64,000 nt of DNA, from assembly GCF_016925615.1 (NCBI RefSeq), contig NZ_CP070499.1:3782001-3846000 (forward strand), read 5' to 3'. The notes beneath the pieces were generated by a model. That model saw only the letters and a program-made list of their open reading frames with translations. It had not been told where the DNA came from and made no database searches. Made by a program: the position numbers and the translations under genes. Source of the DNA: Natronosporangium hydrolyticum. GTDB lineage: Bacteria; Actinomycetota; Actinomycetes; Mycobacteriales; Micromonosporaceae. Below, piece by piece: positions 7,761-52,262 of this stretch (positions are counted from its first letter, which is position 1; each line of letters begins with the position of its first letter).

Positions 7761-8711
7761 ATGGTGGACTTCAGTGGTGGCCCGGTCGCCGGAGATCTCG
7801 ACGTACGGTGGATCCACGGGTCGCGGTCGAAGGCAGACAGTGCCGATCCGTTGCTTCAGGTCCACCGGTACGACGAGCACACATACATCCTGCGGCAGAG
7901 CATGACCGTCAGCCATGAGGCACCGTTCCTGTATCTGCTCTTCGGTAACGACCGCGTGCTCCTGCTCGATACCGGTGCGACGAAAGACCCGGCGACCTTC
8001 CCCTTACGCGCGACCGTCGACGAGCTGGTCTCGGCTTGGCTGGCCAGCCACCCCCGAGCCGACTACGCGCTGGTGGTGGCCCACACGCACGCACACGGCG
8101 ACCACATCGCCGGTGATGAGCAGTTCGCGGACCGCCCGCTCACCACAGTGGTGCCCTCGGACCTGGACTCAGTGCAGTCGTTCTTCGGCATAGCTGACTG
8201 GCCGGAGCAGGTGGTCAGCTTCGATCTTGGCGGACGCGTCCTCGACCTCGTCGGCGCTCCCGGCCATCACCCGACCTCGCTGGCGTTCTTCGACCCGTGG
8301 ACGGGTTTTCTGCTCACTGGCGATTCGGTCTATCCGGGCCGGCTGTACGGGTTCGACATGCCAGCATTCGTGGCGAGCCTGGACCGGCTGGTCGAATTCG
8401 CCGAGGCACGCCCGGTCACCCATGTCATGGGCTGCCACATCGAAATGTCGCGCATGCCCGGTCGGGACTATCCGCTCGGCACAAAGTACCAACCCGACGA
8501 GCCGCCGCTGCAGATGACGATGGCGCAGCTACGCACGGTTCGAGACGCGGCCCGCGCGGCCGAGGCCAAGCCGGGCGTGTATGTCCACGATGACTTCGTC
8601 ATCGCGAGTGGTATGGGGATCCGGAGCATCCTGCGGCTGCTGGTTCGGTCTTTCGGCCAGCGGCTCGGCGTCCGACGGGCGAGCCTCGGCGAGAAGGCGG
8701 CCCAGGCATGA
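7761..8711 (+). CDS. Metallo-beta-lactamase-fold hydrolase
   Basis: A 316-residue MBL-fold protein. The metal motif H110-x-H112-x-D114-H115 lies in VVAHTHAHGDHIAGDEQF, and later metal ligands are likely in APGHHPTS and LLTGDSVYPG. The substrate is not deducible; relatives include lactonases and glyoxalase II-like hydrolases. It starts at ATG 7761 with no clear ribosome-binding site. Its stop overlaps the next gene's start (ATGA at 8708), so it forms a coupled pair with the SDR gene. Confidence 0.88.
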   Translation: MVDFSGGPVAGDLDVRWIHGSRSKADSADPLLQVHRYDEHTYILRQSMTVSHEAPFLYLLFGNDRVLLLDTGATKDPATFPLRATVDELVSAWLASHPRADYALVVAHTHAHGDHIAGDEQFADRPLTTVVPSDLDSVQSFFGIADWPEQVVSFDLGGRVLDLVGAPGHHPTSLAFFDPWTGFLLTGDSVYPGRLYGFDMPAFVASLDRLVEFAEARPVTHVMGCHIEMSRMPGRDYPLGTKYQPDEPPLQMTMAQLRTVRDAARAAEAKPGVYVHDDFVIASGMGIRSILRLLVRSFGQRLGVRRASLGEKAAQA

Positions 8712-9520
8712 TCCTCAAGGGCAAGGTCGCGGTGGTCTTCGGCGCCGGCGGCTTCGTCGGGAGCGCGGTCGCCCGGTCGTTCGCACAGGAAGGCGCGAAG
8801 GTCTACCTCGGTGGCCGTACCATCGAGAAGCTCCAACGGGTAGCCGACGACATCACCGACGCCGGCGGCGACGCCACGGCGGTCGCCGTCGACGCGACGG
8901 ATGAATCGGCGGTGGACCAACAGGTGGCGGCGCTCGCCGCCGACGCCGGTGGCCTCGACATCACCTTCAACGCCATCTCCTACGGCGATGTCCAGGGCGC
9001 GCCGCTGTCTGAACTGCCGCCTGAGCATGTGCTCGGCCCGGTCGACTACGCCCTCCGGACCCACCTCTACACCGTTCGGGCCTGCGCCCGCCACATCGTC
9101 CAGCAGGGCTCGGGCGCGGTGATGACGGTGACCGGATACGGGCCGCCCTTCCCCGAACTCGGTAGCACCGCCATCACCTGGCACGCGGTCGAAGGTCTCT
9201 ACCGGCAGTGGGCCGCCGAACTCGGCCCCCACGGGGTGCGAGTCTGCTGGCTACGCACGGGCGGGTTCCGGGAATCGGTGCTGGGCGCCGCGGCGTACGA
9301 CTCGTTGTTCATGTTCAGCGACGGCGACCTGGTGCCGCTCTCCCGGCTCAGCGGCGACACCGCCGAAGCTGACCTGGCCGGCATCGAGCAGGAGACCATG
9401 CTCAAACGGCTCCCCTCGCTGGCGGAGGCGGGAGCCACCGCGGCCTTCCTCGCCTCCGATCATGCCCGGTCGATCACCGCGACCGCGGTGAACCTCACCA
9501 GCGGCGCGGTCGCCGACTGA
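8708..9520 (+). CDS. SDR-fold protein lacking the usual catalytic Tyr/Lys
   Basis: A 270-residue Rossmann protein of the short-chain dehydrogenase family. The nucleotide-binding motif is VVFGAGGFVGSAVA near the N-terminus, followed by GGRTIEKLQ. Where classical members have Ser...Tyr-x-x-x-Lys, this one reads MTVTGYGPPFPELG then STAITWHAVEGLYRQW: no Tyr or Lys at the expected spacing. It may be a non-canonical reductase or a binding protein. It is coupled to the MBL-fold gene by a four-base overlap, so the two probably act on related compounds. Confidence 0.82.
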   Translation: MILKGKVAVVFGAGGFVGSAVARSFAQEGAKVYLGGRTIEKLQRVADDITDAGGDATAVAVDATDESAVDQQVAALAADAGGLDITFNAISYGDVQGAPLSELPPEHVLGPVDYALRTHLYTVRACARHIVQQGSGAVMTVTGYGPPFPELGSTAITWHAVEGLYRQWAAELGPHGVRVCWLRTGGFRESVLGAAAYDSLFMFSDGDLVPLSRLSGDTAEADLAGIEQETMLKRLPSLAEAGATAAFLASDHARSITATAVNLTSGAVAD

Positions 9521-48993: not shown

Positions 48994-49326
48994 GTGGCGA
49001 GCAACACTTCGAAGACCGCGCGCGCATCGGTCCGGGCCGGGCAGGCCGGCCAGAACGGTGCCCTGAGCGTGCTCGGCGAATTCAAGTACCTGATCCCGCT
49101 CAACCGGGGCAAGCACGCCTATGTGCGCAACCTCACCAACGGCAAGACCACCCACCTGGCCACCGACTCGGAGGCGTTCGTCACCGAGATCCGGGCGCTG
49201 AGCCAGGCCGGGCACGCCGCCAAGATCCGCGCCGAAATCACCGCACTCGCCGAGTCGCACCCGGCGCACGGTTGGGACACCACCGAGAAGCGGCTGGTCG
49301 AGGCCGGGGCCTTCGAGGCTCAGTGA
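48994..49326 (+). CDS. Small basic protein of unknown function
   Basis: 110 residues that I do not recognise. It starts with GTG 48994, with CAGGAG six bases upstream. An N-terminal flexible, basic, Ser/Ala-rich stretch precedes GEFKYLIPLNRGKHAYVRNL and NGKTTHLATDSEAFVTEIRAL, then helical sequence ending VEAGAFEAQ. There is no signal peptide or membrane segment. Codon use is like that of the neighbours, which supports a real gene. It stands alone, with 286 bases of non-coding sequence before it in which I see no clear promoter or hairpin. Confidence 0.7.
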   Translation: MASNTSKTARASVRAGQAGQNGALSVLGEFKYLIPLNRGKHAYVRNLTNGKTTHLATDSEAFVTEIRALSQAGHAAKIRAEITALAESHPAHGWDTTEKRLVEAGAFEAQ

Positions 49327-49475
49327 TCGACACAGACCGCCGTCACGACGGTGGTCTGATCCTCGCGGGCACGGAGCGCGCGGCGGCAGCACACCGGCGC
49401 CAGAGCGGCTCGGTCCTTTCGTCGCGCCTTCGCCCCGCTGGCATTCTCCCCCTGGGTTGAGCGCCGGGCGTTGAC

Positions 49476-49494
49476 AGTCACCCCCGGGTTGACA
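49476..49494. promoter_or_regulatory. 19-bp palindromic site upstream of the HTH gene
   Basis: AGTCACCCCCGGGTTGACA matches TGTC-N2-CCC-N-GGG-N2-GACA at all but the first base. It overlaps TTGACA hexamers at 49471-49476 and 49489-49494. A weaker relative (CCC-T-GGG-TT-GA) lies just upstream at 49444-49462. Confidence 0.75.
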
Positions 49495-49522
49495 GATCCT
49501 GGGTCAGGTGAAGAGTAGTTCC

Positions 49523-49939
49523 ATGGCCAGCGGCCCCAGCTGGGACGACGTGCTCGCGCACCGGCCACCCGAAACCCGGGGGCCGGTCCGCGAGCGGTTC
49601 GAGTCCGTCGGCGTCACCCCGGCACAGGTCCAAGAGGTGCTCGAGGACGGCGGAGACCGGCTCCACCAGGCGTCCAGCAGCGGCACCGCCGACTGGGCCA
49701 CGCCGTACGGCGGGCTGTTGGCCGTGGCCCTGCTCGCCGCCGAGGTGGGCGCGCTCACCGCTCACCTGACGTCGCGTAGTTCGCAGGTCCGTGCCCTGGC
49801 CGTCGAGAATCTTCTCGACGACTTCAGCGCGGTGGCCGTGGCCGGCCGGCTCGGTGTCTCCCGACAGAAGGTCTACGACATCGCCCGTGCCGACACCACC
49901 AAAGACTTCATCGACCGCGTGCCCTGGAGGATGCCGTGA
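49523..49939 (+). CDS. Helix-turn-helix protein, probable regulator of the local exporter unit
   Basis: About 138 residues. The first part is helical (RERFESVGVTPAQVQEVLEDGG) and the C-terminal part holds a helix-turn-helix: NLLDDFSAVAVAGRLGVSRQKVYDIARAD. I cannot assign it to a named family. ATG 49523 (MASGPSW) is preferred; GTG 49508 is the alternative. Its stop overlaps the next gene's GTG start. A 19-bp palindrome directly before it also occurs twice before the ABC exporter at 52191 and 52244, so it likely binds all three sites. Confidence 0.78.
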   Translation: MASGPSWDDVLAHRPPETRGPVRERFESVGVTPAQVQEVLEDGGDRLHQASSSGTADWATPYGGLLAVALLAAEVGALTAHLTSRSSQVRALAVENLLDDFSAVAVAGRLGVSRQKVYDIARADTTKDFIDRVPWRMP

Positions 49940-50628
49940 CCGACATGGAAGAGACCGTAGCCCTGCCCGACCCCGACACCACGCCACTGGTCCACCCGCT
50001 CGACCTGCCCGAGGCGCGACCACTGTTCCGTACCGGATGGCTGGTCGGTGCGGTGACCAGCGTGCCGGTGGCCGCGCTGCTCGCCGCGATCGTCGGGTAC
50101 ACCGGCCGCACCATCGCGGTCCCGGTCATCGTCTTCGTCGTCCTGGTCGGCGTTGGTGCCCTAGCCAGCCGCTGGCTCACCAGCCGCGCCTGGGATTACA
50201 TCCCGCGTCGCCGCCAGGACCGCGACCGCCCGCTGCCCCCGCTGTGGGAGATCGCATCCGCCAGCATTCTCGCTCTGCTGCTGGGGGCGGCCCTGGTGCT
50301 TGTCGTGTTCCGGCTCGGGCGCGACGACGTACCCGCCGATGTCCGCGCCTTCACCTTCGGGATGTGTGTGGTGGTCGCGCTGCTGGTGGTCGCGCAGGCA
50401 GTGGGCGGCCTGCTCCGGCCGGCCCGCCGGCGCCAGGCCGCTGCCCGGCTGCCCGGTGCCGCGGTGGTGGCCGGTGCGACGATCCTGGCGTACTCGATGT
50501 GGTTCGACGGTGACGCCGATGTCACGTTGCTGCTGTGGGGGGCGGCCGCGATGGCCGGCACCGCCGCGGCGGTCGGTGCGGGTCAGCGCGGTGTTCGCCA
50601 GCGCAGCCGCCCAGCCGATAGAGGCTAG
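49936..50628 (+). CDS. Polytopic membrane protein of unknown function
   Basis: 230 residues with about six hydrophobic segments in pairs (LVGAVTSVPVAALLAAIVGY, VPVIVFVVLVGVGALA, IASASILALLLGAALVLVVF, GMCVVVALLVVAQAVGGLL, and two more before the basic tail). It begins with a Pro-rich cytoplasmic part. GTG 49936 overlaps the HTH gene stop, so the two are made together. It may be a sensor that works with the HTH protein or a partner of the nearby exporter; neither is shown by the sequence. Confidence 0.78.
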   Translation: MTDMEETVALPDPDTTPLVHPLDLPEARPLFRTGWLVGAVTSVPVAALLAAIVGYTGRTIAVPVIVFVVLVGVGALASRWLTSRAWDYIPRRRQDRDRPLPPLWEIASASILALLLGAALVLVVFRLGRDDVPADVRAFTFGMCVVVALLVVAQAVGGLLRPARRRQAAARLPGAAVVAGATILAYSMWFDGDADVTLLLWGAAAMAGTAAAVGAGQRGVRQRSRPADRG

Positions 50629-50698
50629 CCGTCACCGCGCCGCGCCGCTGTACCGCCGGCGACGAGACAAACCGCTGCCTCCACGAACTCACACCGGC

Positions 50699-51436
50699 TC
50701 ACTTCCACCGGAAGATGCGCGCGGCCACCAGCGCGAACAGCCCTGCGTACCCGACCAGCACCGCCACCTGGAGCCACGGCATCGGCTGGCCGTACCAGGC
50801 GGCGGTCAACGCCTGCGACGCGGCGCCCAGCGGGGTGTAGCCAGAGATCAGCCGGAGCATCTCGGGCATCATCGGGCCCGGCGTCCACACGCCAGCGGTG
50901 AACATCGAGCCGGTGAACAGCAGCACGCCGAGCCCGTTGGCGGCCTGGCCACTGCGGATCCGGGCGGCGATGACCGCGCCGAACGCCAGCAACTGGACGG
51001 TGCCCAGCAGGAAGGCCAGGCAGACCAGGAACAGATTGCTGGGGGTGGTCGCTCCCAGCAGGAGTACGGCCGTGGCGATCGCGACCGCGGCCCCAGCGGT
51101 CAGGGTGACCGCACTGACCGTCAACTGCGCGAGCAGGACCCGGTGGGCACCGACCGGCGTGGCGCCGAGGCGCCGGAGCACCCCGGTCTCGCGGTAGCCG
51201 CAGATCGCTGATGGGAAGTTGGTCAGGCTGACGCTGGCCATCGCGACCGTCAGCGCTATGGGTACGAACAGGTCGATGACCCGCAGACCGGCGAAGTCAG
51301 GACCGGCGTCCTCGATCATCGAGTCGGTGCCTGGAATGACGAACCCTTGCAGCATCAGCAGCGCGGTCGGGAAGATCAGCGCCATGAAGATGCTCGTCGG
51401 GTTGCGGGCGAATAGTGTGACCTCGATCCGGGTCAT
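50699..51436 (-). CDS. ABC-2 type transporter permease
   Basis: 245 residues with six hydrophobic segments, DrrB/NodJ-like. Features include TLFARNPTSIFMALIFPTALLMLQGFV, CGYRETGVLRRLGATPVGAHRVLLAQL (the coupling-helix motif of this family), and RLISGYTPLGAASQALTAAWYG before the last segment. ATG 51436 lies five bases after the stop of the ATPase gene. With that ATPase it forms a half-size exporter; the substrate is unknown. Confidence 0.9.
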   Translation of the reverse strand: MTRIEVTLFARNPTSIFMALIFPTALLMLQGFVIPGTDSMIEDAGPDFAGLRVIDLFVPIALTVAMASVSLTNFPSAICGYRETGVLRRLGATPVGAHRVLLAQLTVSAVTLTAGAAVAIATAVLLLGATTPSNLFLVCLAFLLGTVQLLAFGAVIAARIRSGQAANGLGVLLFTGSMFTAGVWTPGPMMPEMLRLISGYTPLGAASQALTAAWYGQPMPWLQVAVLVGYAGLFALVAARIFRWK

Positions 51437-51441
51437 CGTGC

Positions 51442-52188
51442 CTAGCGCGCTGATGGTTCCTCTCCCTTCACGGCGGCCCGATGGCGATCGAGCGTGTGCA
51501 GGTATGCCTCTTCGAGGTTGTCCGCACCGGTGGCGGCGATCAGCTCCGCCGGGGCGGCGGTGGCGACGGTGTGACCGTGGTCGATGATGGTGACCCGGTC
51601 GGCGAGCTTGTGGGCCTCGTCGAGAAAGTGGGTAACCAGCACGATGGTCACCCCCGAGTCGCGGATCTCCCGGATGAGGCCCCAGGTGTCCCGCCGCCCT
51701 TCCGGGTCCAGGCCGGTGGTGAGCTCGTCGAGCACGGCGACCCGCGGGTTCCCCACCAGCGCCAGCGCGATGGAGAGGCGTTGCTTCTGGCCCCCGGAGA
51801 GCTTCCCGAACGCGGTCTTCCGTTGCCGGGTGAGACCGACCACCTCGAGCAACTCGCCACCGTCCCGCGGCTCCGGGTAGAAGGAGGCGAACATCGTCAC
51901 CGCCTCGTGTACCCGCAAGGTCCGCGGCAGCGCCAGCGTCTGCAACTGGTAGCCGACCAGCCCGAAGAGTCGCCGGCCGTGCTCGCGGGGGGCCCGGCCG
52001 AGGATCCGGATCTGCCCGGCGTTGTATGGCTCCGCAGCGGTTATGCACTCGACGGTGGTGGTCTTTCCGGCGCCGTTGGGGCCGAGCACGCCGAGAATCT
52101 CGCCCTCCTCGACGGAGAAGCTCACATCGGCGACGGCCACGGTGGAGCCGAAGGTCTTACGGAGGTGGTGAACCTCGATCATTGCCAT
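51442..52188 (-). CDS. ABC transporter ATP-binding protein
   Basis: 248 residues. Walker A is VLGPNGAGKTTTVE, the signature LSGGQKQRLSIALAL, and Walker B VAVLDELTTGLDPEG (Glu after Asp retained, Leu in place of the usual Pro-side residue). H-loop: VTHFLDEAHKLAD. It powers the downstream permease. The start ATG 52188 is three bases from a 19-bp palindrome (52191-52209), with a second copy at 52244-52262, so the operon is almost certainly controlled by a factor that binds these. Confidence 0.93.
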   Translation of the reverse strand: MAMIEVHHLRKTFGSTVAVADVSFSVEEGEILGVLGPNGAGKTTTVECITAAEPYNAGQIRILGRAPREHGRRLFGLVGYQLQTLALPRTLRVHEAVTMFASFYPEPRDGGELLEVVGLTRQRKTAFGKLSGGQKQRLSIALALVGNPRVAVLDELTTGLDPEGRRDTWGLIREIRDSGVTIVLVTHFLDEAHKLADRVTIIDHGHTVATAAPAELIAATGADNLEEAYLHTLDRHRAAVKGEEPSAR

Positions 52189-52190
52189 TG

Positions 52191-52209
52191 TGTCACCCCT
52201 GGGTTGACA
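52191..52209. promoter_or_regulatory. 19-bp palindromic site next to the exporter start
   Basis: TGTCACCCCTGGGTTGACA fits TGTC-N2-CCC-N-GGG-N2-GACA perfectly. It lies between the ATPase start codon and a second copy, a position where a bound protein would block transcription or translation start. Confidence 0.8.
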
Positions 52210-52243
52210 GCTTGGCCCTCAGAATGACACCCCCGCCCCTCGC

Positions 52244-52262
52244 TGTCAACCCGGGGGCGACA
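52244..52262. promoter_or_regulatory. Second 19-bp palindromic site upstream of the exporter
   Basis: TGTCAACCCGGGGGCGACA fits the same pattern. Its centre is 53 bases from that of the first site, close to five helical turns, which would put both on one face of the DNA. Confidence 0.8.

Follow-up and report, generated by a model that had tools for sequence, protein, structure and literature searches.

The DNA analysed here, referred to below as the window, is a stretch of 64,000 nucleotides from Natronosporangium hydrolyticum (contig NZ_CP070499.1). The features of the locus are collected in Table 1. It contains a gene for an HTH regulator, a gene for a six-helix membrane protein coupled to it, and the two genes of an ABC exporter facing the opposite way, and in these respects it agrees with the preliminary description of this DNA. 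A gene for a small protein of about 110 residues (48996-49326), with no match in Pfam or NCBIfam, is found before the regulon. The promoter boxes were inferred from the sequence; the -10 boxes are weak and were picked by a rule that asks for A as the second and T as the sixth base.

Table 1. Genes, promoter boxes and operators of the locus, numbered from the first nucleotide of the window.
Feature	Position	Strand	Remarks
-35 box TTGACA of the HTH-membrane operon	49471..49476	+	invariant in upstream alignment of 10 homologs
Inferred -10 box GATCCT of the HTH-membrane operon	49495..49500	+	18 bp past the -35 box; homologs have a similar hexamer there
Operator O2, AGTCACCCCCGGGTTGACA	49476-49494	.	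fills the 18-bp -35/-10 spacer; matrix score 30.4
HTH regulator, 143 aa	49508..49939	+	GTG 49508 as start codon, message probably leaderless; HTH in residues ~88-140
Six-helix membrane protein, 230 aa	49936..50628	+	start overlaps the HTH stop codon (GTGA)
ABC-2 type permease	50699..51436	-	Pfam ABC2_membrane 54.6 bits, cutoff 26.9; start ATG 51436
ABC ATPase	51442..52188	-	Pfam ABC_tran 91.2 bits, above cutoff
Exporter operator B	52191-52209	.	just past the inferred transcription start (near 52214) and 2 nt short of the ATPase start codon
Inferred exporter -10 box CATTCT	52221..52226	-	17 bp past the -35 box
Exporter operator A	52244-52262	.	end holds the exporter -35 box TTGACA (52244-52249, minus strand)

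The HTH gene probably starts at GTG 49508, which is 15 bases further upstream than ATG 49523, the start first assigned to it, because the homologs begin at the equivalent position and, in each of the 15 listed HTH promoters, the inferred -10 box stands 6-7 nt ahead of the start codon. The protein model is all-helical, with a conserved N-terminal helical domain of about 85 residues, a conserved helix at residues 70-84 and the HTH at the C-terminus. The best Pfam match, HTH_23, and the other HTH models are all below cutoff, no naming match was found in NCBIfam, and nothing significant was found in PHROGs. Fold comparison of residues 88-140 returned generic HTH matches only, with Z up to 6.4, while comparison of the N-terminal part and of the membrane protein returned nothing of note; neither result is evidence for a new fold. 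No domain of sigma factor regions 2 and 4 was found in the protein by Pfam, and the resemblance of its HTH part to sigma region 4 (Z 5.6, rmsd 3.1 over 57 residues) is generic only. A literature search on the half-site or on a regulator of this kind found nothing relevant. In one homolog (G184; L025, 7634-8176) a low-complexity insertion of about 38 residues follows the N-terminal domain.

The model of the partner membrane protein consists of six long helices, and no match to a transporter, enzyme, immunity or other family was found for it. The pair formed by a regulator gene and a following gene for a multi-pass membrane protein is present in every homolog checked. Among 201 genomes of the host family, the membrane protein occurs in the same nine genomes as the HTH gene, together with one marginal match. 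In G129 (L021, about 8220-8723) the HTH gene is intact, but the membrane-protein gene matches over the first ~100 residues only and has probably been disrupted.

The palindrome TGTCNNCCCNGGGNNGACA occurs without mismatch at exporter operators A and B and with one mismatch at O2. These are the three main copies of the preliminary description, and they are the only matches with at most one mismatch in the whole 5.7-Mb genome. With up to two mismatches the window contains five matches, compared with 0.87 expected from shuffled sequences, and none of 100 shuffles attains the observed count. This result, and the conservation of the palindromes at fixed spacing across genomes, make chance palindromes in GC-rich DNA an extremely improbable explanation, even though the pattern itself is GC-rich. 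A weight matrix made from 33 promoter sites of 12 genomes gives the three sites scores of 27.7-30.5, while the next best 19-mer of the window scores 7.0. The three sites were included in the matrix and their scores are not independent; the absence of others genome-wide is independent. The refined consensus is TGTCA-M-CCC-S-GGG-K-TGACA. Two further candidates were rejected. The first is the degenerate fourth copy proposed at 49444-49462, TTCTCCCCCTGGGTTGAGC, which has a matrix score of -10.7. The second is an operator at 49458, the position of O1 in other species, which is absent in the window (score -8.8).

Strong HTH homologs were found in nine of the 201 sampled genomes of the host family, to which Actinoplanes belongs. 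In the genus of G190 the gene is present in 9 of 68 genomes, two of them new, and in the family of Pseudonocardia acidicola (G625) in 5 of 297. A class-wide search of 395 genomes, in which 10 candidates per genome were scored, gave no further carrier, and the HTH family was found in none of the plasmids. The predicted control circuit is not confined to the window: fifteen further actinomycete genomes have it, site by site, and in one of them the exporter lies on another contig than the HTH gene. The exact motif is present in seven of nine HTH carriers and in two of the 192 other host-family genomes (Fisher p = 5e-10, a guide only, since related genomes are not independent events). In 16 carrier genomes the refined pattern with at most two mismatches gives 45 sites, while its reversed control gives one. 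Those off-promoter matches that were inspected fall within predicted coding frames. The check suggested at the outset, a search of the genome and its relatives for the 19-mer, thus found the motif to be rare away from such genes and nearly absent where the HTH gene is lacking. On comparison of these sequences, the palindrome is real, specific and conserved.

Two copies outside the carriers should be mentioned. In G072 an exact, good-scoring palindrome lies between tuf and rpsJ (L032, 1490-1530) within a longer hairpin (GGGTGGCTGTC...GACAGCCACCC); no HTH gene was detected in this genome, and the copy is taken as chance. The copy in G141, which also lacks the HTH gene, scores 15.1, under all known sites, and was rejected. 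Both look like chance occurrences. The copy between tuf and rpsJ, and the ability of the palindromes to form hairpins, could be read as signs of RNA hairpins or of sites for another, more general regulator that stand near these genes by accident. This is very unlikely. Across genomes the motif occurs together with the HTH gene and is nearly absent elsewhere in the carriers, it is fixed relative to the promoter boxes on linked and unlinked targets, and the spacer sites are not transcribed from their own promoter.

Every HTH homolog examined has palindromes on its own promoter, in three slots relative to the -35 box, which is TTGACA, or TTTACA in two cases. Slot O1 has its end in the -35 box, O2 occupies the whole 18-bp spacer, and O3 is located shortly past the inferred start, within codons 3-9 of the HTH gene, in a message that is probably leaderless. 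The distance from O1 to O3 is 54-56 bp. The O2 position is common to most of the Actinoplanes-type homologs, and it alone is kept in the HTH promoters of the window, G146 and G190. Four Pseudonocardia-family relatives, identified once the matrix had been built, have O1 and O3 at 54-56 bp, and two of them combine diverged half-sites with a TTTACA -35 box. In these two (L082 and L084, from G683 and G759) the half-site is altered in parallel with the box (GTTTACA / TGTAA), and the recognition helix SRQKVYDIAR is unchanged. In the multi-operator clade (L018, L020, L021, L023, L025, L040, L042) one palindrome lies inside HTH codons 3-9, so that the operator sets part of the N-terminal sequence of the protein, mostly S-Q-P-G-G-D.

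The exporter is a drug-type ABC-2 system and resembles DrrAB exporters in having tandem, separate genes for ATPase and permease with ABC_tran and ABC2_membrane domains. The best NCBIfam match of the ATPase is drrA (TIGR01188), but its 192 bits are below the cutoff of 312, which places it outside the subfamily by NCBI's rule, and here control would be exerted by an unclassified regulator. Orthologs of the exporter (E below 1e-88) were found in three of the 201 host-family genomes, all of them HTH carriers (Fisher p = 6e-5, likewise a guide only, as related genomes are not independent). The exporter genes face the HTH operon in the window and lie directly downstream on the same strand in G190. 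In Actinoplanes sp. DH11 (G146) the exporter is found on contig C166 and the HTH gene on C224, and both palindromes are kept at the exporter. In all three exporter promoters a pair of palindromes is spaced 53-56 bp apart; the first ends in the -35 box TTGACA and the second lies just before the start codon, while the closest paralogous exporters examined, 57-59% identical, are without palindromes. The three exporter carriers form one clade, with support of 0.96 in the tree of the concatenated pair and 0.95 in that of the HTH protein, which suggests a single recruitment of the exporter into the regulon.

No exporter was found under the motif in eight of 11 host-family carriers or in the Pseudonocardia-family carriers, and most carriers show no promoter under it besides that of the HTH-membrane operon. 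Candidates for further regulon members were sporadic matches with poor cores only (12 carrier genomes at one mismatch or fewer; 16 with the refined pattern at two or fewer). According to these scans, the detectable regulon consists of the HTH-membrane operon everywhere and, in one clade, of the exporter in addition. The self-contained regulon proposed in the preliminary description is strongly supported, by the near absence of the motif from genomes without the HTH gene and by its presence at the exporter of DH11, which lies on another contig than the HTH gene. Control of export as its purpose, proposed at the same time, is partly supported: three carriers have the exporter under the motif, but the constant target is the HTH-membrane operon. 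Export is probably an added output, since that operon is the sole target in most carriers, and the membrane protein is probably the core partner, as sensor or effector.

Comparison of the genomes establishes the association of the sites with the HTH-membrane pair, their specificity, conservation and fixed positions, the pairing of the two genes and the presence of sites at an unlinked exporter. The HTH protein, as the only member of the pair with a DNA-binding domain, is the presumed binder of the palindrome, as a dimer; co-occurrence alone does not formally decide which of the two always-linked proteins is the cognate factor. Sites over the -35 box, the spacer or the early transcribed region are typical of repressors. 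The sites described here overlap core promoter elements or the start, and for this reason we infer that the HTH protein represses.

It might instead be an activator that turns on its own operon and the exporter upon a signal and that is inhibited by the membrane protein, on the pattern of LytTR systems. We regard this as unlikely. O2 does occupy the spacer, the binding place of MerR-type activators. However, the operator of MerR activators occupies an over-long spacer of 19-20 bp, whereas the inferred spacers here are 18 bp at the HTH promoter of the window and 17-18 bp at the exporters, whose sites are not in the spacer, and no MerR DNA-binding model of Pfam or NCBIfam matches the HTH protein. 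The LytTR systems BrsRM and HdrRM (PMC6193735) are similar in the two-gene operon with a DNA-binding regulator followed by a multi-pass membrane protein, in the sites on the own promoter, and in the linkage of ABC transporters in some cases. However, the LytTR sites are direct repeats placed some 10 bp ahead of the -35 box (PMC6193735), and those described here are palindromes that cover parts of the core promoter, namely the -35 box, the spacer or the region just past the start. In addition, no LytTR domain was found in the HTH protein by Pfam, and the autoregulation predicted here is negative, not positive.

As a repressor, the HTH protein would be comparable to the autoregulated efflux repressors of the TetR, PadR and MarR families. 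The features in common are the small HTH regulator, the tiny local regulon, and operators over the core promoters (with boxes inferred here) of the regulator and of a nearby exporter. The system differs from them in that no TetR, PadR or MarR model of Pfam or NCBIfam matches the protein, whose HTH is C-terminal and whose family is without a model in either collection. It also has a constant multi-pass membrane partner, and most genomes have no exporter in the regulon. The predicted working is that of efflux repressors and the gene order is LytTR-like, yet the protein lacks the defining domain of the former, and the system differs from the latter in both domain and sites. The kind of system is thus known, while the regulator family is new.

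The evidence as a whole makes it fairly likely that the HTH protein is a dedicated autorepressor of its own HTH-membrane operon and, in one clade, of a recruited ABC-2 exporter, with the membrane partner as the likeliest sensor or antagonist. As a local repressor, the protein would bind the 19-bp palindrome TGTCAMCCCSGGGKTGACA, probably as a dimer, and would block RNA polymerase at its own promoter, where one operator fills the -35/-10 spacer, giving negative autoregulation. In the clade of the window it would also block the promoter of the two-gene exporter, which is bracketed by operators, one on the -35 box and one just past the start. A compound or envelope stress would relieve the repression, and the six-helix partner would most likely serve as sensor or as sequestering antagonist. 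Exporter and membrane protein would then rise together.

The part played by the membrane protein allows a different assignment, in which a membrane-active compound is sensed directly by the N-terminal helical domain of the HTH protein, the partner is a protective or transporting output, and the exporter was added later. This is a possible reading to which we give somewhat less than even weight. It fits most genomes equally well: in most carriers the membrane protein is the sole product under the motif besides the regulator, and the conserved domain of about 85 residues could bind a ligand. However, the membrane protein matches no transporter, enzyme or immunity family, and the strict one-to-one pairing fits a sensor too. 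Because of this pairing with the regulator, the membrane partner as receiver of the signal is placed slightly ahead of the partner as original effector. With the partner as receiver, the pair may tentatively be seen as a new class of two-gene membrane-to-DNA signalling unit, in which an unclassified HTH repressor would be checked or released by its constant six-helix partner and would use operators at up to three places (-35 box, spacer and coding sequence) of a leaderless promoter. Such a unit could gain outputs, for example an ABC exporter.

These results assign to an unnamed regulator family a candidate operator sequence together with a partner and a target. Comparison between clades that have the exporter and clades that lack it shows how an efflux pump can be brought into an existing circuit and retain its operators where the regulator gene is located elsewhere. 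Should the membrane partner be the receiver of the signal, the pair would represent a further design for membrane-to-gene signalling, beside the two-component, sigma/anti-sigma and LytTR systems.
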